In this document: in pieces, positions 8,892 through 24,508 of the stretch | Layout of the letters: each line of letters starts with the position of its first letter | How positions within the stretch are numbered: the first letter of the stretch is position 1 | NCBI GenBank assembly: GCA_030630935.1 | Contig: DAOVMD010000002.1 | Span: forward strand, 1-26,139 | DNA from: Candidatus Mcinerneyibacteriota bacterium | GTDB taxonomy: Bacteria; AUK180; JAQVHJ01 | Reading direction: 5' to 3' | Length of the DNA: 26,139 nucleotides | Translations under genes and position numbers: made by a program | The notes under the pieces: generated by a model | Database searches by the model: none | What the model saw: only the letters and a program-made list of their open reading frames with translations | Told to the model about the DNA's origin: nothing

Positions 8892-9764
8892 ATGAATAGA
8901 AAAGCAAGGCTTGACCTACCAAATTATTTTTACCATATTATTTGTAGAGGTCAAAGAAAACAACCACTTTATTTCTCTCAAAAAGATTTTTTTATTTTTC
9001 TAAAATTCCTAAAAGAACTTCTTAATGAGACAGATATAAAATTATATTCATTCTGTTTATTAAGAAATCATTTCCATCTTCTTGTTTACAGGACAAAAGA
9101 TTCTTTAGGTAAATTCATGCATTTGTTAAATACAAGATATGCAAATTATTTCAATGGGAAATATAAAAGAGTTGGTTATGTATACCAAAATCGTTTTAAG
9201 TCATTTATTATATTAAATGAGAGCTATCTTATAAATGTCCTTTTTTATATCCATAATAATCCGGTAAAAGCTGGAATTGTAAAAAGAGAGGAAGATTACA
9301 AATTTTCAAGTGCAAGATTTTATCATGGTGATTCAAATACTTTTATTCCACTCAAGAAAATACCGATATTTGCAAAAAAGAACGGAGTGAAACTATATAA
9401 AAAAATGTTGAGTGAAACAAAATTTGAAATCCCAATATTTAAAGATGGAATCGGAACAGAAGATGAATATAAGGAATTAGAGAAGCGTAAAAAGGGAAGA
9501 GAAAAAGGATATATTATTAATAAGCGGAAAAACTTTGAGATATCATCTGATATTAAAACTGAATTTGAAATAATTTTTAAAACTTTGGAGTATTCGAAGA
9601 AAGATATTCATCAATTTCGATTAAAAATCTTCCCTAAAAAAGTTAGAGATAAAATTGTTCTTTATCTATTTAAAAAAGGGTTTAATCAAGCTCAAATTGC
9701 CCGGTTTTTTTGTATCAATAAAGCAACAGTGTCAAGAATAATAAAAAAGGAGAAAATGAAGTAA
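8892..9764 (+). CDS. Y1 transposase, REP-associated (RAYT-like), with C-terminal HTH
   Basis: A 290-residue single-strand DNA transposase of the IS200/IS605 Y1 superfamily in its REP-associated subgroup. The start MNRKARLDLPNYFYHIICRG is typical of TnpA_REP proteins. The metal-binding HUH motif is NHFHLLV (H60, H62) and the likely nucleophile is Y119 in FYIHNNPVKAG. The C-terminal third adds a helix-turn-helix at about 262-287 (QAQIARFFCINKATVSRIIKK), found in one branch of these enzymes. The gene looks intact. The ribosome binding site AAGGAG is clear but enclosed in a hairpin. These enzymes act on short palindromic repeats spread over the host genome and are usually single-copy, domesticated or semi-mobile genes. 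The stop codon lies within the first copy of a 39-bp repeat. Confidence 0.88.
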   Translation: MNRKARLDLPNYFYHIICRGQRKQPLYFSQKDFFIFLKFLKELLNETDIKLYSFCLLRNHFHLLVYRTKDSLGKFMHLLNTRYANYFNGKYKRVGYVYQNRFKSFIILNESYLINVLFYIHNNPVKAGIVKREEDYKFSSARFYHGDSNTFIPLKKIPIFAKKNGVKLYKKMLSETKFEIPIFKDGIGTEDEYKELEKRKKGREKGYIINKRKNFEISSDIKTEFEIIFKTLEYSKKDIHQFRLKIFPKKVRDKIVLYLFKKGFNQAQIARFFCINKATVSRIIKKEKMK

Positions 9765-9813: not shown

Positions 9814-10896
9814 TTATATTACATTCTTTAAGCAGTGCTTACAGAATTCGGGAAGGTCTCCTTTTGCTAATTTGTACTTAAGGTTGAATGCATCTTTTGA
9901 ATTCCAAATTTTTTTCAAAGTATTTTTATTAATATTACCCAAATAAATTTGAGGATGAAAAAAGTTTTCTTTATTAAGAAAGTAAAACTTTCTTTTATAT
10001 GATAAATAAGTGCAGGGAGAAACATTACCTTGCCAATCAATTATGACCCAACTTAGATAACAATTTTTAACTGGTTTGAATTTTAAATCTGCAATTCTGA
10101 AATTCAATTTATCCCGGGTAATAAATTCTCTTATCTGATTGAAAATATTCACATATTTTTCATCGGGTTCTTTTCCATATAAGATTTGAGTAGAATAATA
10201 TTCCGAATAAGGCTCCAACCCATTAATTATATAACAGTCAATCCCGATCTTTTGAAGTGTACTATATATCTGAATCAGTTCATTTACATTTTCTTTTGAT
10301 GATACTGTAATTACTCCGATCTCTCTCAAATTACTTTTTGAATTATTCCTTTCCTTAATCAGAGTTTTCAGGTTGTTGATAATGGTATTAAAATCCGCAC
10401 CTTTTCTGATTCGATTGAATTTTTCCTCCTTAATACTATCAATAGAAATAAAAATTTTATCCAGACCACTTTTAAGAAGCAAGTCAACCATATTTTTATT
10501 CAGCAGAATTCCGTTGGTAGTTAAAAAAACCTCAAGGTTAGGATTAATGCCTTTCACATACTGAATTATTTGAAATAATTCCGGGTGGAGAAGAGGTTCA
10601 CAATTTAAAGATAGAGCTAAACTGGTTAAGTTTTCTAAGTCAGGTCTAAGTCTTTTTATTGTATCAAAACTTATGAACCCGGGATTATGATACCATTCTT
10701 TCAATGAACAAAATTGGCAATCGATATTACAATGTCCGGTGATATCCAATTTTATCCCGTATAGTTTGGGTGGAGAGAAATAATATTTTGATTTCAAAAG
10801 TAAGTTTTTAAGGCTTGAATTTAAAAAATTCTGATCAACTTTTTTGATTAGTTTTTTAATTGATTTAATAATATACAGCTTCAACCCCCCGTGCAT
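9814..10896 (-). CDS. Radical SAM/SPASM-domain protein of unknown substrate
   Basis: A 360-residue enzyme with the radical SAM cluster motif C56-x3-C60-x2-C63 (within DITGHCNIDCQFC), so it binds a [4Fe-4S] cluster and SAM. The TIM-barrel continues with the SAM-binding LSLNCEPLLHPE (95-106). The C-terminal SPASM-like part has C279, C295, C352 and C355, which probably hold an auxiliary cluster. SPASM proteins modify peptides or act on sugars and cofactors; nothing nearby identifies a precursor peptide or substrate. The start is uncertain. The ATG at 10896 gives MHGGLK, partly encoded by a C-rich stretch resembling the repeat end, and no Shine-Dalgarno is visible. The original 5' end may have been altered. 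It is bracketed by perfect 39-bp repeats, and its neighbours do not suggest an operon. Confidence 0.82.
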   Translation of the reverse strand: MHGGLKLYIIKSIKKLIKKVDQNFLNSSLKNLLLKSKYYFSPPKLYGIKLDITGHCNIDCQFCSLKEWYHNPGFISFDTIKRLRPDLENLTSLALSLNCEPLLHPELFQIIQYVKGINPNLEVFLTTNGILLNKNMVDLLLKSGLDKIFISIDSIKEEKFNRIRKGADFNTIINNLKTLIKERNNSKSNLREIGVITVSSKENVNELIQIYSTLQKIGIDCYIINGLEPYSEYYSTQILYGKEPDEKYVNIFNQIREFITRDKLNFRIADLKFKPVKNCYLSWVIIDWQGNVSPCTYLSYKRKFYFLNKENFFHPQIYLGNINKNTLKKIWNSKDAFNLKYKLAKGDLPEFCKHCLKNVI

Positions 10897-10959: not shown

Positions 10960-12744
10960 CTAATGAATTACAGCTAACTTGAATTTTTTGATAACGGTAT
11001 TATTATCTTTTGAAACTTTGAGAACAGCTAAATAAGTACCGGATGCAATGTCTTCACCGTGGTCATTTTTCAAGTACCAGATAATCCTATCGTGATATGG
11101 ATCACCGTTTGAAAATTTGGGTTCAAACTTTTTAACAAGGTCTCCAGAAATATTATAAATTTCACATTCAATTTTAGCATCGGCAGTGAGCATATTAAAG
11201 TGAATAGTTTGATAGAGAGTGTTCTTTGCAGGATTAGGAATCACAATTGGTTTGATGCCAAATTGAAATTCTCCTGGTAATTTTTCAAGGTAAATATTTT
11301 TTTTAACCGGTGTTGAATTAATTTTTATTGAAACTGTTTTTGGAATATATCCAGCTTTTGAGAATGTAAATTGAAAAGAACCTTTAGGTAATATCCAGTG
11401 ATATTCTCCGGTGGTTTCATTTGATTTTCTTGGGCTTATCATATTTGTGTCGACAAAGTTATTTGTGACCCTAACCAGCAATGGTAGATTCGTTTCAGCA
11501 TCATAAACATTACCATATAGCAATGGTCCATTCAATCTTCTGAAATATTCTTTACAACCCTCCCATGCTCTGGAAGAGATGGTATTTATTCTTGATCCCG
11601 GGGGGATGAAAGAAGTTGCCAGTTCAATTGTATATGAGAATATCCCATTGTTTCCATATAACCAATCATCGGAATCTCCTGCAGCAGGATAGAATTCTCG
11701 GGACGCCAGTGAGGTATAGGTTCCACTGTCAGAATCTCTAATGATTTTTCCTGCTACAGAATCAGAGATTTCACGTAATGTAGAATCATCCGGGGCAACT
11801 GAATCATCAGCATAACCAAATGGAAACATAACTACTTCACCATAGGAATGGAATGAAACAGAGATATAGAAATTGCGTTCATTTGCAAGCTTCCGGACTG
11901 CTTTTGTTTCAGGTTCAGAAAACGCAGACTCGCCCCGATATATTTCATCTTCAGGATTGGGGCTTGAACCGTCACCTCCCCAGAACCATCCGTAATTTCT
12001 ATTCGGGTCAACTCCGTCATTATCTGCAACAAAAGAATGATTACCATCGTTATCTCTGCAGTTCTTCCTCCACCATACATTCTCACCATCTAAAACAACT
12101 GCATGCCCGTCAGGGTTTAAGATCGGAATAAAGAATATCTCAAAATTATCAACCCAACTTTTTATTTCAGGATCGGTTGAATAACCGTTTATAAGTTCAT
12201 TCATCATATACAAAACAACTTCAGTTGAAATAGGTTCTCTTGCATGATGAGCTCCTATAAAAAGGAGTTCAGGTTCTTCTTCATCGATAGATGGATTATC
12301 TGAAATTTTCAGCATCCAGATTTCTCTGGAACGATAATCAATATGGTAACTCGAGCCTCCAACTGTCTTCTCCCAAGCATCTCCGATATCATATAATTTG
12401 CACAAGGTAGAATTATTTAATTCATAATTCTCTAAAATAGTTTGAACTTCATCGTATGTATGATATTCCGGATCAAGCTTACTTCTTAAAGTCTTTTCAG
12501 TTTCTAAAATCTCAATTCGATATTCCCAAACCGTACGGAGTTCCTTGAACTTTTCCTGATCCAGAACTAAATCAATATATTCTCCGGGCTTATAAGAGGC
12601 AATGTCAGGATTTATTATAAGGATATCCTTGGGAATATCTTTACCGGGTAAATAAATTCTATAAATGTTTTTCTCAGCATAAGTTTGACTGCAAAATAGA
12701 AAAGATACTAATATAATTACAGAAATAACTTTTAGTTTCTTCAT
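10960..12744 (-). CDS. Secreted M14 zinc carboxypeptidase with C-terminal FlgD/T9SS-like domain
   Basis: A 594-residue exported peptidase. The signal peptide ends near A23 (SQTYA-EK). The M14 domain (about 90-405) has zinc ligands H167 and E170 in GAHHARE and H299 in SFHS, substrate arginine R249 in DPNRNY, and general base E374 in YTIEL. It should remove C-terminal residues from peptides outside the cytoplasm. It continues with a carboxypeptidase-regulatory-like beta domain (about 408-487) and a final beta domain (about 495-594) with NPAKN, NISGDLVKKF and DIASGTYLAVLK, which resembles FlgD-Ig or T9SS-type C-terminal domains. An in-frame ATG exists at 12831, but it lies upstream of the -10 box, so the start at 12744 is chosen. 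That start also gives a standard signal peptide. The gene is monocistronic by appearance. Confidence 0.9.
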   Translation of the reverse strand: MKKLKVISVIILVSFLFCSQTYAEKNIYRIYLPGKDIPKDILIINPDIASYKPGEYIDLVLDQEKFKELRTVWEYRIEILETEKTLRSKLDPEYHTYDEVQTILENYELNNSTLCKLYDIGDAWEKTVGGSSYHIDYRSREIWMLKISDNPSIDEEEPELLFIGAHHAREPISTEVVLYMMNELINGYSTDPEIKSWVDNFEIFFIPILNPDGHAVVLDGENVWWRKNCRDNDGNHSFVADNDGVDPNRNYGWFWGGDGSSPNPEDEIYRGESAFSEPETKAVRKLANERNFYISVSFHSYGEVVMFPFGYADDSVAPDDSTLREISDSVAGKIIRDSDSGTYTSLASREFYPAAGDSDDWLYGNNGIFSYTIELATSFIPPGSRINTISSRAWEGCKEYFRRLNGPLLYGNVYDAETNLPLLVRVTNNFVDTNMISPRKSNETTGEYHWILPKGSFQFTFSKAGYIPKTVSIKINSTPVKKNIYLEKLPGEFQFGIKPIVIPNPAKNTLYQTIHFNMLTADAKIECEIYNISGDLVKKFEPKFSNGDPYHDRIIWYLKNDHGEDIASGTYLAVLKVSKDNNTVIKKFKLAVIH

Positions 12745-12784
12745 TATATATACCAAACTCTCTTTTTTAAAGTTATCTAGAAAA

Positions 12785-12813
12785 ATTATACCATAATATA
12801 TAAATCTTGTCAA
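12785..12813 (-). promoter_or_regulatory. Consensus sigma70 promoter of the M14 peptidase gene
   Basis: On the minus strand a perfect TTGACA (12813-12808), a 17-bp spacer and a perfect TATAAT (12790-12785) with extended -10 TATGG. Transcription should begin near 12778, some 34 bases before the chosen start codon. This excludes the upstream in-frame ATG at 12831. Confidence 0.88.
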
Positions 12814-12831
12814 GTATTTAAACAAGTTCAA

Positions 12832-13219: not shown

Positions 13220-13699
13220 ATGAATAAGATATTTGCTAAATCAATATTTCCTGGTTTTACATTAATAGAATTAATGATAGTTGTTGCAATAATTGGCATA
13301 CTTGCAGCTTTTGGAATACCGAATTTTATCTATGCCAGGAGACGTTCGTTTCTTGCTTCATGTGAAGCTAATTTACGAGGTTGTTCAACCGCGATTACTC
13401 TTTATCACACGGACACCAAGACCTGGCCAACAGATCTGAATATTTTGATCAACCATGGTTACCTTGAGAATGCTAAATCGATCCAATGTCCTTTAAATGC
13501 TCCTACCGAATATGCATTTACGTTATTCCAGCCTGGTGATTCGGATTATGATAACCTTGGGCGCCTATATGAAATTGAATGCTTAAATACTACTGCCGGG
13601 GGCGGTCCGATAAAGCATGTAGGGCGTTCAGGACCGAAGTCCTCAATGAATGTTCTTAAATATGTTTGGGGTCTTGGTATCTTCACCATTGAGAATTGA
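13220..13699 (+). CDS. Type IV prepilin, first paralogue
   Basis: A 159-residue pilin precursor. The leader MNKIFAKSIFPG is cut by prepilin peptidase before F13. The mature N terminus FTLIELMIVVAIIGILAA is a canonical type IV pilin helix with E at mature position 5. Residues FGIPNFIYARR continue the helix. The globular part has cysteines in SCEANLRGC and later at SIQC and EIEC, which could form disulfides. The C-terminal HVGRSGPKS motif is shared with the next gene (HVGSAGPRS), so the two are paralogues; this one is longer, with about 20 extra residues around the D-loop region and tail. Its own promoter lies just upstream. Whether it is a major or minor pilin cannot be told. A second promoter begins right after it. 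Confidence 0.9.
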   Translation: MNKIFAKSIFPGFTLIELMIVVAIIGILAAFGIPNFIYARRRSFLASCEANLRGCSTAITLYHTDTKTWPTDLNILINHGYLENAKSIQCPLNAPTEYAFTLFQPGDSDYDNLGRLYEIECLNTTAGGGPIKHVGRSGPKSSMNVLKYVWGLGIFTIEN

Positions 13700-13793: not shown

Positions 13794-14213
13794 ATGAAAA
13801 AAGCAAAAGGTTTTACACTTATCGAGCTGATGATCGTTGTTGCTATTATTGGTATTTTGGCCGCAATCGCAATTCCTAACATGATTTATGCAAGAAGAAA
13901 AGCTATCCTTTCTTCATGTTCAGGAAACTTAAGAAATCTTGGTATTGTTGTTACCAACTATTCAACAGATCATAAGGGACATTATCCACAGGATTTGGAT
14001 TGTTTAGTAGACTTAGGTTACATTGAAGGATTACCACCATGTCCAAATTCCGATGTCGATTATTCCTATCCAGCTCCTGGTTGGGACTCTACTAGTTTTA
14101 CTATCTTCTGTCCAAACCCCACAAACCATGTCGGTTCTGCCGGTCCTAGAAGTATAACCGCTTCTCTGTATTATGAAGCAGGCAGGGGTGTCACACAGAT
14201 GGATCAACCATAA
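13794..14213 (+). CDS. Type IV prepilin, second paralogue, probably the major pilin
   Basis: A 139-residue prepilin with a short leader MKKAKG, then FTLIELMIVVAIIGILAAIA after the cleavage site, and the continuing helix IPNMIYARRK. It shares with the first pilin the SC-x2-NLR segment, a DLGYIE-type turn with a following CP, and HVG-x-x-GP-x-S near the end. Cysteines lie near SSC, DC, PPC and FC. Its own extended -10 promoter, near-perfect ribosome binding site, and a strong terminator directly after it imply high, partly separate expression. I therefore infer that this is the main structural subunit. Its size is typical of small type IVa pilins. Confidence 0.9.
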   Translation: MKKAKGFTLIELMIVVAIIGILAAIAIPNMIYARRKAILSSCSGNLRNLGIVVTNYSTDHKGHYPQDLDCLVDLGYIEGLPPCPNSDVDYSYPAPGWDSTSFTIFCPNPTNHVGSAGPRSITASLYYEAGRGVTQMDQP

Positions 14214-14292: not shown

Positions 14293-15105
14293 ATGATTTA
14301 TATAATTCTCTTTTTATTTGGACTGATAATCGGTAGTTTTCTTAATGTATGTATTTATAGAATTCCAAGAGATGAGTCAATTGCATTCCCCCCTTCAAAA
14401 TGTCCAAACTGTCAAACCCCTATAAAGTTCTATGATAACATACCTGTTATAAGTTATATTATCTTGGGGGGGAAATGTAGAAAGTGTAGGGAGAAGATTT
14501 CTATAATTTACCCTGTAATTGAATTGATAACTGCAATTTTAATCCTATTAGTTTTTATAAAATGGGGATTTACTTTCCAATCAATTATCTCTTTTTTCCT
14601 GACAATTTCACTGATCGTTATCTTTTTTATTGATCTTGAACATAAAATTATCCCGGTAAATCCACTTCTTATATTAGTTCCTATTACTTTGTTGTTACTA
14701 GATACTATGCTATTTTCTAAAACCGGGATCAAAGTTTTTTTACTCGATTATATTCTTGGAGGGGTGATAGGGTTTTTATTAATTTTTTTAATTAGAATTA
14801 TTTCAAAACCAATTTTTAAACGCGAGGCAATGGGAATGGGAGATGCTTACCTTTTTCTTTATCTCGGATTATTCTTAGGGTGGCGAAGTCTTCTTTATAT
14901 CCTTTTTATATCTTCAATTATCGGGGCATTGATCAGCATTATTCTTTTAGTCATTACTAAGTCAAAAGAACGTGAAATTCCTTTCGGACCCTTTATATCA
15001 ATTGCCAGTTTAATATATCTATTTTTCGAGAAATATATTTTAATAAATCTCAATATTTATCAGGTATTTAATGACTTGATTTTTATCATAAAACATTCGA
15101 TTTGA
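14293..15105 (+). CDS. pilD: Prepilin peptidase / N-methyltransferase PilD
   Basis: A 270-residue polytopic inner-membrane aspartic protease that cleaves prepilin leaders and N-methylates the new N terminus. The N-terminal part has GSFLNVCIYRIPR (14-26) and two CxxC pairs, CPNC and CRKC, typical of bifunctional enzymes that carry the cytoplasmic zinc-binding loop. The two catalytic aspartates are in FFIDLEHKIIP and in MGMGDAYLF (usual form GxGDxKL). About eight membrane segments follow the usual pattern. The ribosome binding site is weak. It lies between its substrates (the two pilins) and the pilM operon. A single PilD could also serve other prepilins in the genome. Confidence 0.93.
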   Translation: MIYIILFLFGLIIGSFLNVCIYRIPRDESIAFPPSKCPNCQTPIKFYDNIPVISYIILGGKCRKCREKISIIYPVIELITAILILLVFIKWGFTFQSIISFFLTISLIVIFFIDLEHKIIPVNPLLILVPITLLLLDTMLFSKTGIKVFLLDYILGGVIGFLLIFLIRIISKPIFKREAMGMGDAYLFLYLGLFLGWRSLLYILFISSIIGALISIILLVITKSKEREIPFGPFISIASLIYLFFEKYILINLNIYQVFNDLIFIIKHSI

Positions 15106-15194: not shown

Positions 15195-15223
15195 TTGACA
15201 TTTAAACAAAAATATGTTAAAAT
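15195..15223 (+). promoter_or_regulatory. Promoter of the pilMNOPQ-C operon
   Basis: TTGACA (15195-15200), a 17-bp spacer and TAAAAT (15218-15223), with extended -10 TATGT. It matches the first pilin promoter over the -35 side and over 16 bases spanning the -10. It is the only visible promoter for the eight genes to 23154. Confidence 0.85.
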
Positions 15224-15254: not shown

Positions 15255-16304
15255 ATGGGTTTATTAGATTTTTTGGGTAGCGGAAAGCCCAAATTAGCCA
15301 TAGATTTAGGGGCTGATAGTATAAAAATTCTGCAAATGGAAGGAACCCCCGGCAACTATAAACTGAAAAATTTTACGATTGAGTATTTAGAAGAAGGCTT
15401 CTTTTCTGAAGGCATGGTACAGGATACATTGAAGGTAGGAGAGAAGATAAAAGATGCCATGGCACAAACGGGCATGAAGGCAAAAGCAATCGTAACAGGA
15501 GTTTCCGGCAGGTCAGTAATTATCAAGTTTATAAAGCTTCAAAATAAACCCGATCAGGAATTAGATATAGATATTAAAAATGAAGCCACCACATATATTC
15601 CATTTGAGATTTCAGAAGTTGTAATGGACTATGCAAAGTTAGGTGTTGATTCGACTGATCAAGTTGATATTATGATCACTGCAATTAAGAGAGAAGACAT
15701 TGAGACAATGAATGGTTTTTATAGTTCAATAAATTTAGCTCCCGGAATTGTTGATGTTGCCCCATTAGCAATATTCAATGCTTTGGAAGCCAATTATGAT
15801 CTTGAGGGAGACAAGTCGTATGCCTTAGTAAATATTGGTTCTTCAATGACTAATTTAATAATGATTGATAAGGGAGTTCCCAAATTTACCAGAGATATTT
15901 TTAATGGTGGATTGAACTGCACTAAATTTATTGAGAGAATGAGAAGGTTAGAATTTAAGGATGCGGAGAAATTTAAGAAAGCGCAACGTGAGAATGTTGG
16001 TGAATTATATTCAATCATTGGAAATCCTTTAGGAGAGTTAGTTCGAGAAATCAGTGGAACATTTGAATATGTTCAAGGTATGAACTTCAGCCCGTTAAGT
16101 AGGATTTATTTATGTGGCGGGAGTGCATTAATTCCTAATTTAAAAGATTATTTTGTAAATCAGTTTGGAATAGAAACAGAATTAATGAATCCGTTTAAGA
16201 AGATAGATGTAATTGGGAGTACAATTGATACTCATTATCTTGAAGCGATTGCTCCACAGCTTGCAACAGGCGTAGGTCTTGCAATTAGAACAATAACAGG
16301 ATAA
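15255..16304 (+). CDS. pilM: Type IV pilus assembly protein PilM
   Basis: A 349-residue actin-like cytoplasmic ATP-binding protein that forms the ring linking the pilus machine to PilN. The first phosphate loop is AIDLGADSIKI (about 15-25), the second is around LVNIGSSMTNLIMIDKG, and the adenosine motif is IYLCGGSALIPNL. FTRDIFNGG is the conserved PilM strand between them. Length is normal (350). The ribosome binding site GGAGG is strong. It is the first gene of the operon, with pilN 22 bases behind, the same order as in proteobacterial and Thermus T4aP loci. Confidence 0.95.
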   Translation: MGLLDFLGSGKPKLAIDLGADSIKILQMEGTPGNYKLKNFTIEYLEEGFFSEGMVQDTLKVGEKIKDAMAQTGMKAKAIVTGVSGRSVIIKFIKLQNKPDQELDIDIKNEATTYIPFEISEVVMDYAKLGVDSTDQVDIMITAIKREDIETMNGFYSSINLAPGIVDVAPLAIFNALEANYDLEGDKSYALVNIGSSMTNLIMIDKGVPKFTRDIFNGGLNCTKFIERMRRLEFKDAEKFKKAQRENVGELYSIIGNPLGELVREISGTFEYVQGMNFSPLSRIYLCGGSALIPNLKDYFVNQFGIETELMNPFKKIDVIGSTIDTHYLEAIAPQLATGVGLAIRTITG

Positions 16305-16326
16305 TAAATTTAAGGAGACCTGTATT

Positions 16327-16866
16327 ATGTTAAAAATCAATCTTGCTATTAAAGAAGAAAAGGGGGGGAAAGTACCCCAGGAATGGATAGTAGTAGGTTT
16401 TTTCGCTGCTGTAACACTCTTTATTATGATAGGTATTATGTTTAGTAATAATGGCAAACTTAACAAACAGAGGGATGAGATTACGCAGAAGAAAGCCGAG
16501 CAGAAAAAACTGGAAGCGATAATTACGCAGATTAACAATCTAAAGAAACAGAAATTGAATCTTGAAAAGAAGAATAAAGTTATTGATGAACTTAACCGCG
16601 GTCGGCAAATTTGGCCGAAGATAATGCGAATGTTAGTTGAAACAAAACCTGAACAGTTATGGATTAAAAAAATCGAGGGAAGTTCAAAGCAGATTCAATT
16701 GGAAGGAAGTTGTTTTTCACATTTAAATGTTGCTCAATTTATGGAGAACTTAAAGAGTGATTCAATGGTAGCATCTGTTACTCTTAACAAAACCATTTCA
16801 GCTGGAGTTAGGAGTACAAGTGGTGGTGAGTTGGTTAATTTCTCATTACAAATTAACCTTAAATAG
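16327..16866 (+). CDS. pilN: Type IV pilus inner-membrane protein PilN
   Basis: A 179-residue bitopic protein. The short cytoplasmic N terminus MLKINLAIKEEK is the PilM-binding type of tail (usual core INLLP; here INLAI). One membrane helix follows at about 21-39, then a coiled coil at about 45-92 rich in K/Q/E, and an alpha/beta domain with LWIKKIEG and LEGSCFSHLNVAQFMENL, characteristic of PilN. It pairs with PilO to form the periplasmic alignment complex. Length is close to the family norm (about 180-200). The ribosome binding site AAGGAG precedes it. Confidence 0.92.
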   Translation: MLKINLAIKEEKGGKVPQEWIVVGFFAAVTLFIMIGIMFSNNGKLNKQRDEITQKKAEQKKLEAIITQINNLKKQKLNLEKKNKVIDELNRGRQIWPKIMRMLVETKPEQLWIKKIEGSSKQIQLEGSCFSHLNVAQFMENLKSDSMVASVTLNKTISAGVRSTSGGELVNFSLQINLK

Positions 16867-16888
16867 AAAACAATGGAGATTAGCAATA

Positions 16889-17482
16889 ATGAAGGGTAAT
16901 TCAAAAATTTATGTTTATGGACTTTTAATCTGTATTGGTATTGCAGCAGGATTTTGGTATTTCCTATTCAGGAATCAAAAATTCGACTATGATAAAGATT
17001 TCAATACTCTCAAGGATGTCTCACAAAAGATTAGTGAGGCACGAATCAAGGAGCAGGAGAAGGAGAGTGTTGAGCGTGAGATTGAAGTTTTGAAGATGAA
17101 GTTGGAATATGCAAGAGAAAAACTTCCGACAGAAGAAGAGATCGATAAGCTATTAAGAGAGATTCATGATATTGGACTTCAGGCACGAATAAAATTTATT
17201 CATTTTGTTCCTGGTAAAAAGGTAAAGCTTTCAGGGCAGGAATATTTTAAGAAACCCATTGAAATGAAAGTTGTAGGACCTTATCATCAGATAGGGATAT
17301 TTTTAAATAAGATTGGTGGACTCCCTCGAGTGGTTAATGTTCAGAATCTTTCAATGCAGCGAGTTGTGCTTTCGAATAACCAGGGAGTCGAACGAGCTAC
17401 GATTAAGGCATTCACATATATCTATCCTGACAAACCGGGAGATAAGAAGCCGCCGCCAAAACCAAAACCAAAACCTCATTAA
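16889..17482 (+). CDS. pilO: Type IV pilus inner-membrane protein PilO
   Basis: A 197-residue bitopic protein with one membrane helix (about 8-27), a periplasmic coiled coil (about 38-85) and a ferredoxin-like domain containing MKVVGPYHQIGIFLNKIGGLPRVVNV, the PilO signature. It forms heterodimers with PilN and contacts PilP. The frame opens earlier (16820), but that would overlap pilN and spoil the N terminus; the ATG at 16889 has GGAG at 16875-16878 and gives a normal protein. The tail PPPKPKPKPH is an unusual basic proline-rich extension of about 15 residues, possibly a binding segment in the periplasm. Confidence 0.92.
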   Translation: MKGNSKIYVYGLLICIGIAAGFWYFLFRNQKFDYDKDFNTLKDVSQKISEARIKEQEKESVEREIEVLKMKLEYAREKLPTEEEIDKLLREIHDIGLQARIKFIHFVPGKKVKLSGQEYFKKPIEMKVVGPYHQIGIFLNKIGGLPRVVNVQNLSMQRVVLSNNQGVERATIKAFTYIYPDKPGDKKPPPKPKPKPH

Positions 17483-17496
17483 TCGGAGTTTTACTA

Positions 17497-17943
17497 ATGA
17501 AAAGAAAAATGTCTTTAGTTTTAAGTTTATTCTTACTTATTTCAATTCTGGTTTCTTCAGGCTGTTTATCAGAGCAAACGATCCAAGATACTAAACCAGC
17601 TCCTACTGTGATGAAACCAAAACCAACAGACACTACAAAAACGCTGAATATTGAGGATGAGAAATTTATTTATTCACCCGAAGGTGAGAATCCGTTTGAA
17701 CCGGTAATTACAACCGTTATCAAGATAAATATTGACAAGATTAAGTTAGTCGGTATAATTTGGGAAGAAGGAAATCCCACAGCATTGGTTGAAGATGAGA
17801 ATAAAGTAGGTTATATGTTACGTGAAGGTGATTTTGTAGATCCTGATAATAACATAAAAGTTGTTTCCATTGACAAGAAATGTATTGTATTTGATATTCG
17901 GAAAGATTTATTTCATGTTACAAAGAAGTATTGTTTAAAATAG
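17497..17943 (+). CDS. pilP: Type IV pilus lipoprotein PilP
   Basis: A 148-residue lipoprotein. The signal sequence ends at LVSSGC with the acylated cysteine C23; the lipobox is slightly atypical (serine at -3). A disordered proline/threonine linker (about 30-50) precedes a small beta domain beginning around FIYSPEGENPFEPV, with KLVGIIWEEGNPTALVEDE and YMLREGDFV, the HR-type fold of PilP/GspC that docks to the first secretin N domain. It is shorter than E. coli-type PilP (about 170). The ribosome binding site is GGAG. After it, 58 bases separate it from the secretin genes, including a weak hairpin. Confidence 0.9.
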   Translation: MKRKMSLVLSLFLLISILVSSGCLSEQTIQDTKPAPTVMKPKPTDTTKTLNIEDEKFIYSPEGENPFEPVITTVIKINIDKIKLVGIIWEEGNPTALVEDENKVGYMLREGDFVDPDNNIKVVSIDKKCIVFDIRKDLFHVTKKYCLK

Positions 17944-18001
17944 AGTATAATATATATTAGTTTAGTTATACTAATTACAATTAGAATCAAGGAGGAAGCT
18001 G

Positions 18002-19315
18002 ATGAGTAAGAAGCTGAGATTAACAACATTTATAATGCTATTTTTATTACTACTGCTTGTAAATGCTTTTGCCGATGAGAATTCGAATGTTCTTGTTACT
18101 GAAGATAAACAGGAAATTACATATGATCCTGGGACTCAGACTATAACTTGTGATATCTTTAATGCAAATATCAAGCATCTACTTCAGTTATTTGCTGATA
18201 TTCAGCAAATGAATGTTATTTTTTCATCAAGGGTAAAAGGTACGTTTTCAGGTCGATTGATTAATGTTCCGATTAAAGATGCTTTTAAAATAGTATTAGA
18301 CAGTAATGGACTTGGTACAGAAGAGAGTGAAAATATCATTAGAATAGATACCAAAGCATATTTAAAGGCAGAGAAATCGAAAAAGATGAAAATTCAGGAA
18401 ACCGAGTTATTAGCAAAAGATACAATTACGAAGACAATCCCTGTGAACTATGGAGATATTACTCAATTGAAAGCAAATGTTTCAAAGGTTCTTACACCGG
18501 GGAAGGGCAAGGTTTCTGTGGATTCAAGAACTAATCAGCTAATTGTAACAGATATTCCAGAAAGGTTTGTAGTAATTGAAGAGCTAGTCAGGCGATTAGA
18601 TGTTCCAATTCCTCAAGTTATGATTGAAGCGAAAGTAGTTCAATTACATAATATAGAAACTTCGCATTTAGGTATCTACTGGACCGGAACAAATGCAGTT
18701 AACCCGGTTGCCGACCCTGTTGTTTCAGGTGGTCAATATACCGGTGATGCACCAACTGGGACTATAGCTACAGGTATGTTTCAAATTCAAACAGGTTTTG
18801 TTACTGATTACGTTGCACTGGAAGCAACAATTTCTCAGTTAGCTTTTCAGAGTAAGGCGAAGATCTTATCAAATCCAAGAATTGCAACATTAAATAATGA
18901 GACAGCAAAAATTAATATAGGTAATAAAATACCTTTAAGAATGCAGTCGGAGGATGGTACACTTACAACGCAATTAACAAATGTTGGTACAGTTATTACT
19001 GTTACTCCTCAGATCAATCATGAAAATAAAATAATAATGAAAATTAAACCTGAAGTAAGTTCAATTGCCGGTGCTGTTTCAACGGGACCACTAATTGACA
19101 CAAACTATGTCGATACAAAGATTATGGTGAATGACGGTGACACTGCAGTTATTGGTGGGTTAGTAAAAAATGAAATAACGAAATCCGAAGTTGCTGTTCC
19201 ATTTTTTAAAGACTTACCATTTATAGGCAAGTTATTTAAAACAAATGATAAAAATAGAGATAGGATTGAAATATTAGTCTTTGTTACACCTAGAATAATT
19301 AGAAATTATGAATAA
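18002..19315 (+). CDS. Short type IV pilus secretin (first of a tandem pair)
   Basis: A 437-residue exported protein with a signal peptide (cleavage near residue 24, NAFA-DE). It has an STN/N0-like domain (about 45-118, with NVIFSSRVKGTFSGRL and NIIRI), one N1/KH-like domain (about 145-200) and a full secretin beta-barrel domain (about 205-435). The domain ends KIMVNDGDTAVIGGLVKNE and ILVFVTPRIIR, the classical secretin signature. It lacks AMIN domains. Its gate region (LGIYWTGTNAVNP, 223-235) and barrel are clearly related to the following gene, so the pair arose by duplication. It could build its own ring, form mixed rings, or serve a different substrate. The ribosome binding site AGGAGG is strong. 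Confidence 0.9.
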   Translation: MSKKLRLTTFIMLFLLLLLVNAFADENSNVLVTEDKQEITYDPGTQTITCDIFNANIKHLLQLFADIQQMNVIFSSRVKGTFSGRLINVPIKDAFKIVLDSNGLGTEESENIIRIDTKAYLKAEKSKKMKIQETELLAKDTITKTIPVNYGDITQLKANVSKVLTPGKGKVSVDSRTNQLIVTDIPERFVVIEELVRRLDVPIPQVMIEAKVVQLHNIETSHLGIYWTGTNAVNPVADPVVSGGQYTGDAPTGTIATGMFQIQTGFVTDYVALEATISQLAFQSKAKILSNPRIATLNNETAKINIGNKIPLRMQSEDGTLTTQLTNVGTVITVTPQINHENKIIMKIKPEVSSIAGAVSTGPLIDTNYVDTKIMVNDGDTAVIGGLVKNEITKSEVAVPFFKDLPFIGKLFKTNDKNRDRIEILVFVTPRIIRNYE

Positions 19316-19329
19316 ATCAGGAGGGCAAT

Positions 19330-21927
19330 ATGTCCAGGAAAAAGATTAATTTAAAAAGATTAATTATACTGCTGATTGTAGCAGGAGCATTAGGAATCTT
19401 CAATCTTGTTTTTGCAGTTTCGGAAGTGAACAATGTCAGTTTTGTCCCCGGTTCAGATGGGGCTTTGATTAACATTTCGATTTCAGGTCCGAAAGATTAT
19501 TCTGTAAATAAGGTTGGTAGTCTTATAATAATTGATCTCAAGGACTCAGAGAATAATTTTGGGGAGAGAACAATTGCGGGAGACGGCAATATCATCTCAG
19601 ATATTGTTGTAACGCAATATATGAGGCAGCCTCAGAAACAGGTTAGGATAACTGTTAAATTAACAAGAGATATGCCTTATAATATTTCTAAGTCAAATGG
19701 TCAGCTCACAGTTGAGGTTGGCAGTATTGCCGGTCTAAAAGATTCCGGACCATCTCCCACTGCAGAGATTCCTGCAATTTCTGAAGAAGAGATTTTAATT
19801 ATTGCAACTGAGAAATATATTACTCAGATGACAGATGAAGCTGACGAATTAATGGAAGCGAAGAAATATAAGGAAGCTACTGCGTTGTACAATAAGATTG
19901 CTTCCGGAGATTATGAAATTCCAAAGTCTGTAATAAATGATGTAAAAGTAGAATTGGGAATTATATCTCCAAAACCAACTCCACCTCCTCCAGAACCGGA
20001 ACCAGAACCAGTAATTCCACCTCTTCCAATTCCAGAACCAGAACCTGAAATAGTTATACCGACAATTCCAACTCCACCAATTCCAACTCCACCAGTGCCG
20101 ACTCCACCAGTTCCAACTCCGGAACCCCCACCAACCCCACCTTCACTTGCTTATTCATCAATTAGTGATATAAATTATTCAAAGATGGGTAACGAAGTTA
20201 AATATACAATTAAAACCAGTAAAAAACCTTATTATAATTTCTATCCGAAATCACAAGGAAATGGGCTTATAATAGAGTTAAAGAATTCGTTAAATGCATC
20301 CGGGATAAAATCCTTACAAGTAGATAGTGATATAGTTAAGAGTGCATCTGTTTCAGTTGAAGGAGATGACCTTTTAATCTCTTTGGATTTCGGTCCTGAT
20401 AGCAAATATCAGATTTATCCGGTTGGAGATAATATTGTTTTATCTGTAACAAAGAAGACATTTGAGCCAGTTCCGGTCGCGGAAGTTTATCCAGAACCTA
20501 CTCCCACACCGGTTTATACTCCTCCTACTCCGGTACCAACAGACGTTCCACCGGAACAAGTTTATCTTGATGATCAATTTAAATCTGAGGGACCTTCATA
20601 TGCAGAACTATATTCAGGTTATAGAATACCGCCTGAATCTGAAATAACACAGATTGACGTTGATGTTGCAGGAGACGAGTTGATTTCATATTCTGAGATG
20701 AAAATAAAAACGGAAGATTTAAGTAAAGATGATTTATTAGTAGAGAAGAGAAAATATAAAGGAATGACTCCAATTTCTATGGAGCTTGAGGGAGCAGATA
20801 TTAAAAACTTCCTGAGATTGATTTCATATAAAACGAACATCTCAATTTATTCTGATCCAGGTGTATCTGGTCAAGTAACAATTAAATTGAAAGATGTCCC
20901 TTGGGAAGTTGCTCTTGATAATATTCTGAAGAATGCAGGATTTACTTATGAATGGCAAGGTGATCATATGATTCGAGTCACTAAATTAGATATCCTTGAA
21001 AAAGAGAAAAAATCAGAGCTTGAAGCGAAGAAGTTGAAGGAGGAGATGGAACCGTTAATTACAAGGATTTATACTATTTCATATTCTGATCCTAATTCAT
21101 TGAAGACTCTAATCAAAGAGCAGCTAACTAAGCGTGGAGAAATAGATGTCAACAAACGTGCAAATAAAATAATAGTTACTGATGTTGCAAAATCATTTAA
21201 GAAAGTTGAAAAATTAATTTCAGAACTTGATCTTGAAACTAAACAGGTAAATATCAGTACACGAATTTATCGATTGAATGATATTACTTCTAAAGATATT
21301 GGAGTTTATTGGAAAGGGAGTAATACAATTAATCCAGCTGCAAATCCTACCACAACAGCAACAAGTAACTTAGGGCCTAATGTTCCTAGTCAAGGAATTG
21401 GTCAGATTGTTATTGCAACTCAATCTCAGATGTATTCTATCGAAGCAGCCATTACTGCATATACATCCACAAACCAGTTGGATCTTGTTACAAGCCCTAA
21501 TGTTACAACTCTAAATCATGTTCCTGCACAGATTGTTATAGGTCAGATGGTACCTATTACAATGTTAGATAATGCAGGAAATACTGTGACACAATTAACA
21601 ACAATTGGTACAAAGATTATTGTTACTCCACATATTAATGCTGAAGACTTAATCATTATGAAGATTCATCCGGAGATTAGTGCACTTGCCGGAACAACTG
21701 GTGAGGTTAATATTGCAACTAGTGAAGCGGATACAAAGGTCATGGTAAAAGATGGTGATACCGCAATTATTGGTGGATTAACAGAGGTTCGCGAAACTAA
21801 GTCAAAGTACTTTATTCCGGGCCTGCATAAAATTCCAATCTTAGGATTATTAACAAAGAACTCAAGTAAAACAATGAGTACCGCGGAAATCTTGATATTT
21901 GTAACACCCAGGATTGTAAGACTATAA
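19330..21927 (+). CDS. pilQ: PilQ, long AMIN-domain secretin (second of a tandem pair)
   Basis: An 865-residue outer-membrane secretin. Order: membrane signal (about 10-30), AMIN domain 1 (about 32-131, peptidoglycan binding in the family), a helical TPR-like pair (about 165-210), a proline-rich linker (215-271, repeats of PTPP and PEPEPE), AMIN domain 2 (about 274-375), a second proline/threonine linker (about 385-410), N0/STN (about 478-552), N1 (about 578-636) and secretin (about 640-865). The secretin ends KVMVKDGDTAIIGGLTE and ILIFVTPRIVR. The linker DNA (about 20055-20145) carries ~15-bp tandem repeats encoding PTPPV units, a possible slippage site for length variation in whole codons. 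The first secretin gene ends 14 bases upstream. Confidence 0.94.
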   Translation: MSRKKINLKRLIILLIVAGALGIFNLVFAVSEVNNVSFVPGSDGALINISISGPKDYSVNKVGSLIIIDLKDSENNFGERTIAGDGNIISDIVVTQYMRQPQKQVRITVKLTRDMPYNISKSNGQLTVEVGSIAGLKDSGPSPTAEIPAISEEEILIIATEKYITQMTDEADELMEAKKYKEATALYNKIASGDYEIPKSVINDVKVELGIISPKPTPPPPEPEPEPVIPPLPIPEPEPEIVIPTIPTPPIPTPPVPTPPVPTPEPPPTPPSLAYSSISDINYSKMGNEVKYTIKTSKKPYYNFYPKSQGNGLIIELKNSLNASGIKSLQVDSDIVKSASVSVEGDDLLISLDFGPDSKYQIYPVGDNIVLSVTKKTFEPVPVAEVYPEPTPTPVYTPPTPVPTDVPPEQVYLDDQFKSEGPSYAELYSGYRIPPESEITQIDVDVAGDELISYSEMKIKTEDLSKDDLLVEKRKYKGMTPISMELEGADIKNFLRLISYKTNISIYSDPGVSGQVTIKLKDVPWEVALDNILKNAGFTYEWQGDHMIRVTKLDILEKEKKSELEAKKLKEEMEPLITRIYTISYSDPNSLKTLIKEQLTKRGEIDVNKRANKIIVTDVAKSFKKVEKLISELDLETKQVNISTRIYRLNDITSKDIGVYWKGSNTINPAANPTTTATSNLGPNVPSQGIGQIVIATQSQMYSIEAAITAYTSTNQLDLVTSPNVTTLNHVPAQIVIGQMVPITMLDNAGNTVTQLTTIGTKIIVTPHINAEDLIIMKIHPEISALAGTTGEVNIATSEADTKVMVKDGDTAIIGGLTEVRETKSKYFIPGLHKIPILGLLTKNSSKTMSTAEILIFVTPRIVRL

Positions 21928-21945
21928 ACGTGAGGTGATCATATT

Positions 21946-23154
21946 ATGCCGAAGTTTTCGTACAAGGGTCTAAAGGGTACAACACAAATTGCAGGTGAGA
22001 TTGAAGCACCGGATGCTGATTCCCTGAAGAGAAGATTGCAAGCACAGGGTATCCAGGTAGAGGAGATTAAAAAGAAGGGTGCATTGGATATTAATCTTAC
22101 TCTCCCTACAATTGGTACAGGTGTCAGTCTTAAAGAAGTAACTATCTTTACTAGACAGTTCGCTACAATGATTGATGCTGGTCTTCCATTAGTTCAATGC
22201 TTGGATATTCAGGTTAAACAGCTTGAAAATCCTGCTTTCAAAAAAATTATAAAAAAGGTTAAGGAAACAGTCGAGAGTGGAAGTACTTTTGCTAATGCTC
22301 TGGGAAAACACCCAAAACTGTTTGATAGACTTTTTGTGCATATGGTTGAAGCAGGAGAAACAGGCGGTGTACTTGAAGTTATTATGGACAGGTTAGCTGT
22401 CTATATGGAGAAAGCAGATAAATTAAAACGAAAAATTAAAGGTGCTATGATTTATCCGGTTATTGTTTTCTCCCTGGCGATTATTATTGTTTACGGACTT
22501 GTTACATTTGTTGTTCCTGTATTTGCAAAAATGTTTGAAGGTATGGGAAGTAAACTACCTGCAATTACTCAATCGCTATTGGATCTATCTAATTTTTCGA
22601 AAAAATACGGTATCTTTATTATTGCCGGTCTGGCAGGGGCAGCGTTTTCTTTTGTAACAGGAAGACAAAAATCGACTAAATTTAAATACATGACCGATAA
22701 TTTAACGATGCATCTCCCGATATTTGGGCAATTGATTAGGAAAAATGCAGTTGCCAAGTTTACCAGAACACTAGGAACATTGATATCTTCAGGTGTTCCA
22801 ATTATTGATGCATTAGATATTACTGCAAAAACTTCAGGTAACCTGGTAATTGAAACAGCTGTTTATGAAACTCGTAAATCAATTTCAGAAGGAAAAACTA
22901 TTTCAGAACCTCTTAAGAAAACAAAAGTTTTCCCTTCAATGGTTATTCAGATGATTGATGTTGGTGAACAGTCCGGAGCTTTAGATCAGATGCTTGAAAA
23001 AATCGCAGAATTCTATGAAGCTGAAGTTGATGATCAGGTTGATAACTTAACCGCCATGATGGAACCGATAATTATCGTTTTCCTCGGCACAAGTATTGGA
23101 TATATCGTTATCGCAATGTTTATGCCGATATTAACAATGGCTAGTAATTTATAA
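21946..23154 (+). CDS. pilC: Type IV pilus inner-membrane platform protein PilC
   Basis: A 402-residue GspF/PilC-family protein on which the assembly ATPase acts. A short cytoplasmic head (MPKFSYKG) is followed by two duplicated T2SSF domains: the first with FTRQFATMIDAGLPL (69-83) and AGETGG (136-141), the second with FTRTLGTLISSGVPI (272-286) and VGEQSGALD (339-347). Membrane segments lie at about 170-192, 222-238 and 373-397. The length is standard. The ribosome binding site GAGGTGAT is strong. It is the last gene of the operon, closed by a terminator. Many bacteria place pilB and pilT next to pilC; they are absent here. Confidence 0.95.
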   Translation: MPKFSYKGLKGTTQIAGEIEAPDADSLKRRLQAQGIQVEEIKKKGALDINLTLPTIGTGVSLKEVTIFTRQFATMIDAGLPLVQCLDIQVKQLENPAFKKIIKKVKETVESGSTFANALGKHPKLFDRLFVHMVEAGETGGVLEVIMDRLAVYMEKADKLKRKIKGAMIYPVIVFSLAIIIVYGLVTFVVPVFAKMFEGMGSKLPAITQSLLDLSNFSKKYGIFIIAGLAGAAFSFVTGRQKSTKFKYMTDNLTMHLPIFGQLIRKNAVAKFTRTLGTLISSGVPIIDALDITAKTSGNLVIETAVYETRKSISEGKTISEPLKKTKVFPSMVIQMIDVGEQSGALDQMLEKIAEFYEAEVDDQVDNLTAMMEPIIIVFLGTSIGYIVIAMFMPILTMASNL

Positions 23155-23171
23155 AATATTTCAAATTATTG

Positions 23172-23209
23172 TGGCGGTCATTTCAAAAAGAGTGACCGCC
23201 ATTTTTTTT
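23172..23209 (+). terminator. Intrinsic terminator after pilC
   Basis: TGGCGGTCA (23172-23180) pairs with TGACCGCCA (23193-23201), followed by eight T. The next open frame starts only 12 bases after the T-run, with no separate promoter visible, so it may be expressed by read-through. Confidence 0.93.
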
Positions 23210-23221
23210 GTTTGAATAATT

Positions 23222-24508
23222 ATGCAAAATATAAAAAAAGAAAAAATACTAAGAATACTTCTCTACACTTTTTTAACCATTATATTCATCATTCCATTTT
23301 TGAATACTGCTTCTAATGTAATTTTGAAATTTCAAATTACTTTTATCTTCGCCGCGATAATGATTGTAATGCTTGCATTTTATAAGTTCTGGAAGTTAAC
23401 ACCATTTAGAAAAATTATTAATTACTTCATTGCTTTTATATTATTGAATATTTTATTTATTCCATTCTCTATCAATATCTCTAATTCAATAAGAACAATA
23501 TTCTTCTTCTCTTCATACTTGATGGTGTTCTGTATCTCAATCTTCTTTACTATAAACTTTAAAGAAGATAAAACAATAAGAAAAATTATCAAAAATGCAC
23601 TCTATCTCCTGTTATTTATTGTAGCATTAAAAGCAATAACACAGTTCTTTTTTGAATTTGATTATATGTTAAAAAATATTAATGAACTGAGTATTCCTGC
23701 TGATAAACTTAATGATTATAAATTAAGATTGATGGATAAAAGGGTATTCTCATTCTTTCTTTACTCAAATATCTTTGGAGGTTTTCTTAATCTCTTGATT
23801 CCATTAGTCTTTGGTGTTATTATAATTAGATCTAAAAATAAAAAAAATAAAGTAGAAACGATTATTTCAATTTTAATTATCATAACTTCTGTTATTGCAA
23901 TGTTATTAACAAGGTCAATTGGTGTTATATTGTCGATATCCTTAACTATAATAATTATATTCTTCTTAATTAAAAAAGGTTTAAACATAAAAACAATAAA
24001 ATATGCTTATATCTCAATTTTCACAATGCTTTTATTAATCTTAGTACTGCTCTTCACAAGAAGAAATGATTTAACAGATGTACTTAGTTACACTAATCCG
24101 GTTATTATGAGATATTATAACTGGGTTGCAGGATTAAATATCTTCTTCACATACCCCTTAACCGGAATAGGGTTAGGTAACTTCGGGGATATATATCCAC
24201 GATTTATGATTAAAGGACATACTCAATATGTTCACAATACTTACATTCAGATCCTACTTGAATCCGGAATCATGCCCTTTATCTTCTTAGGGCTGAGCTC
24301 ATGGGAATTCATTAAAGCAGCATACCGGAGTATTAATAAAGTGAACCCTCTTTATGACTTTAGCCTATATCTATTTGCCGCAATATTTACTTTTATATTA
24401 CATAATACAGTGGATTTTTCCTTCTATACTTACTCAACGGGCATCACTTTTTCTGTTCTTGCCGGCATTCTCCTTGGTATAAACCATGAAAAACACATAT
24501 ACCATTAA
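23222..24508 (+). CDS. O-antigen ligase / Wzy_C-family membrane protein
   Basis: A 428-residue protein with about 11-12 predicted membrane segments and one large periplasmic loop at about 285-345. This loop holds RYYNWVAGLNIFFTYPLTG and IGLGNFGDIYPRF, and then the family hallmark HNTYIQILLESG. This layout is that of WaaL O-antigen ligases, Wzy polymerases and PglL/PilO-type protein O-oligosaccharyltransferases, which sequence alone does not separate. Position just behind the pilus operon makes pilin glycosylation a reasonable idea; capsule or lipopolysaccharide assembly is the alternative, given the export-type protein downstream. No Shine-Dalgarno precedes the ATG at 23222, so the start is uncertain. 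Confidence 0.78.
   Translation: MQNIKKEKILRILLYTFLTIIFIIPFLNTASNVILKFQITFIFAAIMIVMLAFYKFWKLTPFRKIINYFIAFILLNILFIPFSINISNSIRTIFFFSSYLMVFCISIFFTINFKEDKTIRKIIKNALYLLLFIVALKAITQFFFEFDYMLKNINELSIPADKLNDYKLRLMDKRVFSFFLYSNIFGGFLNLLIPLVFGVIIIRSKNKKNKVETIISILIIITSVIAMLLTRSIGVILSISLTIIIIFFLIKKGLNIKTIKYAYISIFTMLLLILVLLFTRRNDLTDVLSYTNPVIMRYYNWVAGLNIFFTYPLTGIGLGNFGDIYPRFMIKGHTQYVHNTYIQILLESGIMPFIFLGLSSWEFIKAAYRSINKVNPLYDFSLYLFAAIFTFILHNTVDFSFYTYSTGITFSVLAGILLGINHEKHIYH

Follow-up and report, generated by a model that had tools for sequence, protein, structure and literature searches.

Paired PilQ-type secretins in a single type IVa pilus operon of Candidatus Mcinerneyibacteriota

Secretins are generally regarded as homomeric rings, with each machine having one; why, then, does a single type IV pilus operon carry two secretin genes? 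PilQ, the secretin of type IVa pili, forms a 12-15-mer ring in the outer membrane through which the pilus leaves the cell. The window analysed here is a stretch of 26,139 nucleotides from a 3.16-Mb assembly (471 contigs, 80% complete; genome G000). Its pilus operon runs from 15255 to 23154 in the order pilM-pilN-pilO-pilP-secA-secB-pilC and is preceded by pilin-like genes and a pilD-like gene. A sequence-only reading had placed two secretin open reading frames in this operon, and both were recovered as described, the first (secA, product A) at 18002-19315 with 437 aa and the second (secB, product B) at 19330-21927 with 865 aa. The features of the locus are as follows.

13220..13699, + strand: pilin-like protein with an N-terminal methylation motif (Pfam N_methyl, 5e-7)
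13794..14213, + strand: major-pilin-like protein, GFTLIELMIVVAIIGILAAIAIP (Pfam N_methyl, 2e-10)
14293..15105, + strand: prepilin peptidase, PilD-like (sequence; phmmer to PilD-like genes of other phyla)
15195..15223, + strand: candidate promoter of the pilM-pilC unit, TTGACA-17-TAAAAT with TG before the -10 (consensus scan)
15255..16304, + strand: pilM (Pfam PilM_2, 7e-54; TIGR01175 above cut-off)
16327..16866, + strand: pilN (Pfam PilN, 6e-11)
16889..17482, + strand: pilO (Pfam PilO, 1e-25)
17497..17943, + strand: pilP, lipoprotein-like (position and a weak Pfam PilP match, 0.001, below cut-off)
18002..19315, + strand: secA, AMIN-less PilQ-type secretin, 437 aa (Pfam, TIGR02515, AF2 model)
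19330..21927, + strand: secB, AMIN-bearing PilQ, 865 aa (Pfam, AF2 core model)
21946..23154, + strand: pilC, inner-membrane platform (two T2SSF repeats; PilC/GspF models)
23171..23202, + strand: candidate intrinsic terminator at the operon end (13-bp stem, T-run)

The candidate promoter matches the consensus at 11 of 12 positions and is a lead only, since the scan as a whole returned as many matches as shuffled sequence. A perfect sigma-70 match within pilP (17732-17759), considered as an internal secA promoter, was dropped: it is absent in G001, and total matches again equalled those in shuffles. For pilO, the ATG at 16889 is a more likely start than the GTG at 16820 of the listed reading frame. 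A PilD-like gene also lies upstream of pilM in loci L115, L117 and L119.

Several neighbouring genes were observed alongside. Directly after pilC, the gene at 23222-24508 is Wzy_C/O-antigen-ligase-like and is kept in four genomes, one match being slightly under the cut-off (elsewhere L118:3057-4208, L120:3090-4058 and L121:3049-4191); it is possibly a pilin O-oligosaccharyltransferase. Further upstream lie a Y1/IS200-like transposase with a C-terminal HTH (8892-9764), a radical SAM protein resembling a tungsten-cofactor oxidoreductase maturase, under the cut-off of that model (9814-10896, - strand), and an M14 carboxypeptidase with a weak T9SS-type C-terminal sorting domain (10960-12831, - strand).

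Domain content of the two secretins

Both genes have strong Shine-Dalgarno sequences (AAGGAGG for secA, CAGGAGG for secB) and signal peptides recognised by eye. Pfam identified Secretin (5e-44), Secretin_N (2e-12) and a weak STN/N0 domain in secA, with N1 at residues 143-205 and the secretin domain at residues 283-434. No AMIN domain was detected by Pfam in secA, in agreement with the sequence-only reading. In secB, Pfam matched Secretin (6e-35), Secretin_N, STN and AMIN; the linkers are proline-rich and the secretin domain lies at 21460-21921. AMIN, a wall-binding domain, is common in PilQ proteins without being universal, and two copies had been proposed for secB. The first, at residues 35-129 (19432-19716), is clear and above the cut-off, but the second, at residues ~280-366 (~20167-20427), is weak, with 18.1 bits (cut-off 20.5) and E 0.003 when scanned alone. 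The AMIN of secB in G005 is under the cut-off.

The PilQ model TIGR02515 gave secA 285.3 bits, above the curated cut-off of 284.35; among its orthologues the score was 298.4 in G001 and 237-252, under the cut-off, in the second family of the class (f2). The same model was the top-scoring NCBIfam model for secB at 236.5 bits (orthologues 234-260), below the cut-off, and trees group secB with PilQ. Scores for GspD (TIGR02517: secA 202, secB 168, cut-off 351 bits) and HofQ (NF010083: secA 190, secB 164, cut-off 554 bits) fell short. For each of the two proteins the best structural match of the AF2 model (mean pLDDT 75.6 for secA, 74.3 for secB) was V. cholerae PilQ 6w6m, matched over residues 49-435 of secA and by the secB core model with Z 17.8. 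N0, N1 and long barrel strands are present in both models, including the N0 that is weak by Pfam in secA, and the C-terminal VTPRI motif and lip strands are predicted in both. The Phe of the GxLF motif is invariant in 42 outside secretins and is retained in secB orthologues, whereas the window secB reads GLLTK. Going by this substitution, solo assembly of B might have been lost in this species.

Age and upkeep of the duplication

We built two maximum-likelihood trees, in which the secA and secB clades each received 100/100 support and were placed as sisters (98/95 with 42 outside rows, 99/94 with twelve close relatives swapped in). Paralogy by duplication, as originally proposed, is thereby upheld. 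Because the two clades are monophyletic and sisters, the duplication predates the split of the two families in the class sample, which comprised seven genomes (G000-G006). Judged by these trees, pilQ duplicated once before the class radiated and both copies were kept; within the trees' sample the duplication is specific to this lineage. Core identity between secA and secB is ~32-35%, similar to that between secretins of different phyla. In L149 (G092) and L152 (G120), the nearest single-copy relatives in other phyla, the only secretin at this place is an AMIN-bearing PilQ, although this node is weaker (92/79). Since these relatives carry AMIN, descent of secA from an AMIN-bearing form by AMIN loss would be the simpler reading of the phylogeny.

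The duplication had initially been argued from a shared segment, YWxGxNxxNPxAxP. The segment is indeed present and unique among the fetched reading frames, but it spans 14 residues (226-239 and 660-673), slightly more than first given, and it is weak as evidence of duplication. Orthologues of either gene do not conserve it and it lies in a disordered, low-confidence loop, and we dropped it as proof. The two copies of the segment share 67% DNA identity, which gives no sign of recent gene conversion.

Both genes were followed across the class. In six of seven genomes (G000-G005), secA shares a contig with secB or at least with its 5' end. The seventh, G006, has the 3' part of secB but neither PilO nor secA, and is uninformative because its secB contig breaks off at the linker. 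The order in G001, from the window's family, is pilO-pilP-secA-secB, whereas G002-G005 of family f2 have pilM-pilN-secA-pilO-pilP-secB followed by pilC, with pilO and pilP between the two secretins. The contig carrying secA ends inside secB in G001-G004; in G002-G004 the break falls at the low-complexity linker of secB and the remainder starts another contig.

If the first gene were decaying, as the sequence-only reading allowed, then its orthologues should show it. Instead, secA is intact in 6/6 informative genomes, and omega for the G002/G003 pair was 0.09-0.12 for secA, 0.08-0.12 for secB and 0.07-0.12 for pilO; this pair alone was used because dS was saturated in more distant ones. The comparison with outside secretins used 60 columns conserved in 80% or more of them; secA orthologues retain a mean of 46.2 of these columns and secB orthologues 44.8. 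By these sequence measures both genes are intact and under purifying selection at omega ~0.1. We consider it very probable that the locus encodes two functional secretins from an ancient duplication.

Two secretins on one platform

The proposal of a single PilMNOP-C platform held up. PilO gave one match per genome in the six class genomes where it was found, and PilC one locus per genome in the five best class assemblies. Given one PilO and one PilC locus, secA and secB must use one platform, unless parts were missed. No second GspF was found in the family f2 genomes. We note that several PilB/GspE-type and several PilT-type ATPase matches occur per genome in G000-G006, so that many motors stand against a single PilC locus in each of the five best assemblies. 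Besides the pair, the window genome has one further secretin, which is GspD-like and lies on a different contig, making three in all. This third secretin was seen in L123 (G000:C208), L124 (G003:C25) and L122 (G006:C27); it adjoins pseudopilin-like genes in L123 and L124, and proteins resembling the window's transposase lie near it in L124.

Polar recruitment of PilQ in M. xanthus depends on its AMIN domains, and across ten surveyed species the presence of AMIN broadly follows polar piliation, three exceptions aside (PMC10653833). An AMIN-bearing and an AMIN-less secretin side by side therefore suggest two differently placed channel populations. We tentatively propose two homomeric channels that differ in AMIN-based anchoring, a reading we hold at a little under even confidence. 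A and B would each form their own homomeric outer-membrane ring, and the N0/N1 domains of both rings would connect them to one shared PilMNOP-C platform. B would be held to peptidoglycan by AMIN, probably at septal or polar sites, and A, having no AMIN tie to the wall, would be placed and anchored differently. One motor could thus serve pili at two kinds of sites, or through two kinds of channel. The weak AMIN domains of the window secB count against separate channels, as does the fact that co-operonic paralogues often form mixed rings.

If A and B instead assembled into one secretin, then A would supply barrel subunits while B would occupy some positions with its AMIN arms, leaving fewer wall anchors and more room around the pilus. 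We regard such a mixed ring as short of even odds, yet nearly as likely as two channels. The two genes share an operon, have strong ribosome-binding sites and lie 14 bp apart in the window; there is a single platform, and both copies occur in every informative genome. There is also a precedent in PulD, where full-length and N-truncated subunits assemble together in vitro despite the difference in their periplasmic length, but the barrels in that precedent are identical (PMC4604470), whereas the cores of A and B have diverged to the extent given above. In family f2, moreover, pilO and pilP separate the two genes. We rate two channels as somewhat more likely than a mixed ring. A stricter form, in which an obligate heteromeric secretin would form one gate from two paralogous subunits, one with wall-anchoring arms, throughout the class, we consider less likely than not. 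Charge reversals fixed in the class (K389/E391/D404 in A, E/R/K in B) were considered as evidence for orthogonal or for complementary interfaces and dropped, as they point neither way: 3 of 11 fixed charged columns were reversed, against a mean of 3.2 in control comparisons of other clade pairs.

A division of labour, with A specialised for DNA uptake or for protein or pseudopilus export and B serving the pilus proper, seems improbable to us. The AMIN-less A has a size like that of the DNA-uptake secretin HofQ, and many PilB- and PilT-type ATPases make several extension and retraction programmes per platform conceivable; T. thermophilus makes two distinct pili from one machinery (PMC13039148). 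However, A scores 190 bits with the HofQ model, far below its cut-off of 554, the pair has no linked competence gene, and the GspD-like third secretin already sits elsewhere with pseudopilin-like genes. A nested or stacked channel, as the sequence-only reading had floated, with one ring extending the other toward the inner membrane, is physically possible but found no specific support and is very improbable, since a complete N0-N1-gate/barrel with lip strands and VTPRI is predicted for each protein, so that both would sit in the outer membrane. It is barely credible that a recent tandem duplication left A as a relic, or that the pair is an assembly artefact: six genomes of two families, each assembled independently, have an intact orthologue of A, the divergence of A and B is as deep as that between phyla, omega is ~0.1, and nothing was found in support of either idea.

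With two diverged, conserved paralogues on one type IV pilus platform, the class is a natural experiment. It bears on whether heteromeric secretin rings are possible and on whether pilus machines are directed to distinct sites in the cell by AMIN domains.

Comparison with known systems

Two secretins in one pil operon had been called unusual, and the survey supports this. The nearest relatives from other phyla carry a single secretin at this place; the pilMNO-type clusters of twelve close single-copy relatives likewise contain one each, and no second secretin turned up in the sequence flanking 80 loci of other phyla. Among the best matches listed for 232 surveyed genomes, read by eye, there was no second same-contig PilQ-like pair, and a search of the small phyla of G092 and G120 found no same-contig secretin pair. 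Our literature search for two PilQ or tandem secretins, in open-access papers, returned nothing relevant, a weak form of absence. The portions of Denise et al. 2019 drawn on here describe ATPase and inner-membrane platform duplications and mention secretin co-option, and contain no secretin duplication inside one T4aP locus (PMC6668835).

The pair resembles type IVa PilQ (TIGR02515, pilMNOPQ operons) in its N0, N1 and secretin domains and in its place after pilMNOP and beside pilC. It differs in having two paralogous secretins rather than one, one of them without AMIN, and in the position of secA, which varies between the families of the class. Short AMIN-less or split PilQ proteins of other phyla match secA in size and domains and end pilMNOP, but there the short secretin is the operon's only one. 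An AMIN-less form of 409-458 aa stands alone at the secretin position in L143, L144, L147, L148 and L151. In L035:5060-7152 and L037:5090-7152, PilQ is split into an AMIN-only gene and then a short secretin of 406 aa, with a 4 bp overlap.

Genome G045, from another phylum, has two tandem ~1000-aa secretins (L126:6081-12254, - strand). Like the present pair, these are adjoining paralogues beside PilM-like and PilO-like genes; unlike it, they are far more divergent, near-equal in length and without AMIN, with six Secretin_N repeats each, and they apparently represent an independent event. The T. thermophilus machine shares with this locus the principle of several outputs from one machinery, but the description as used here has a single secretin, PilQ (PMC13039148). 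Each part of the present arrangement is thus known, and what appears to be new, as far as a weak absence of precedent can indicate, is that two diverged secretins are fixed together within one type IVa pilus operon.
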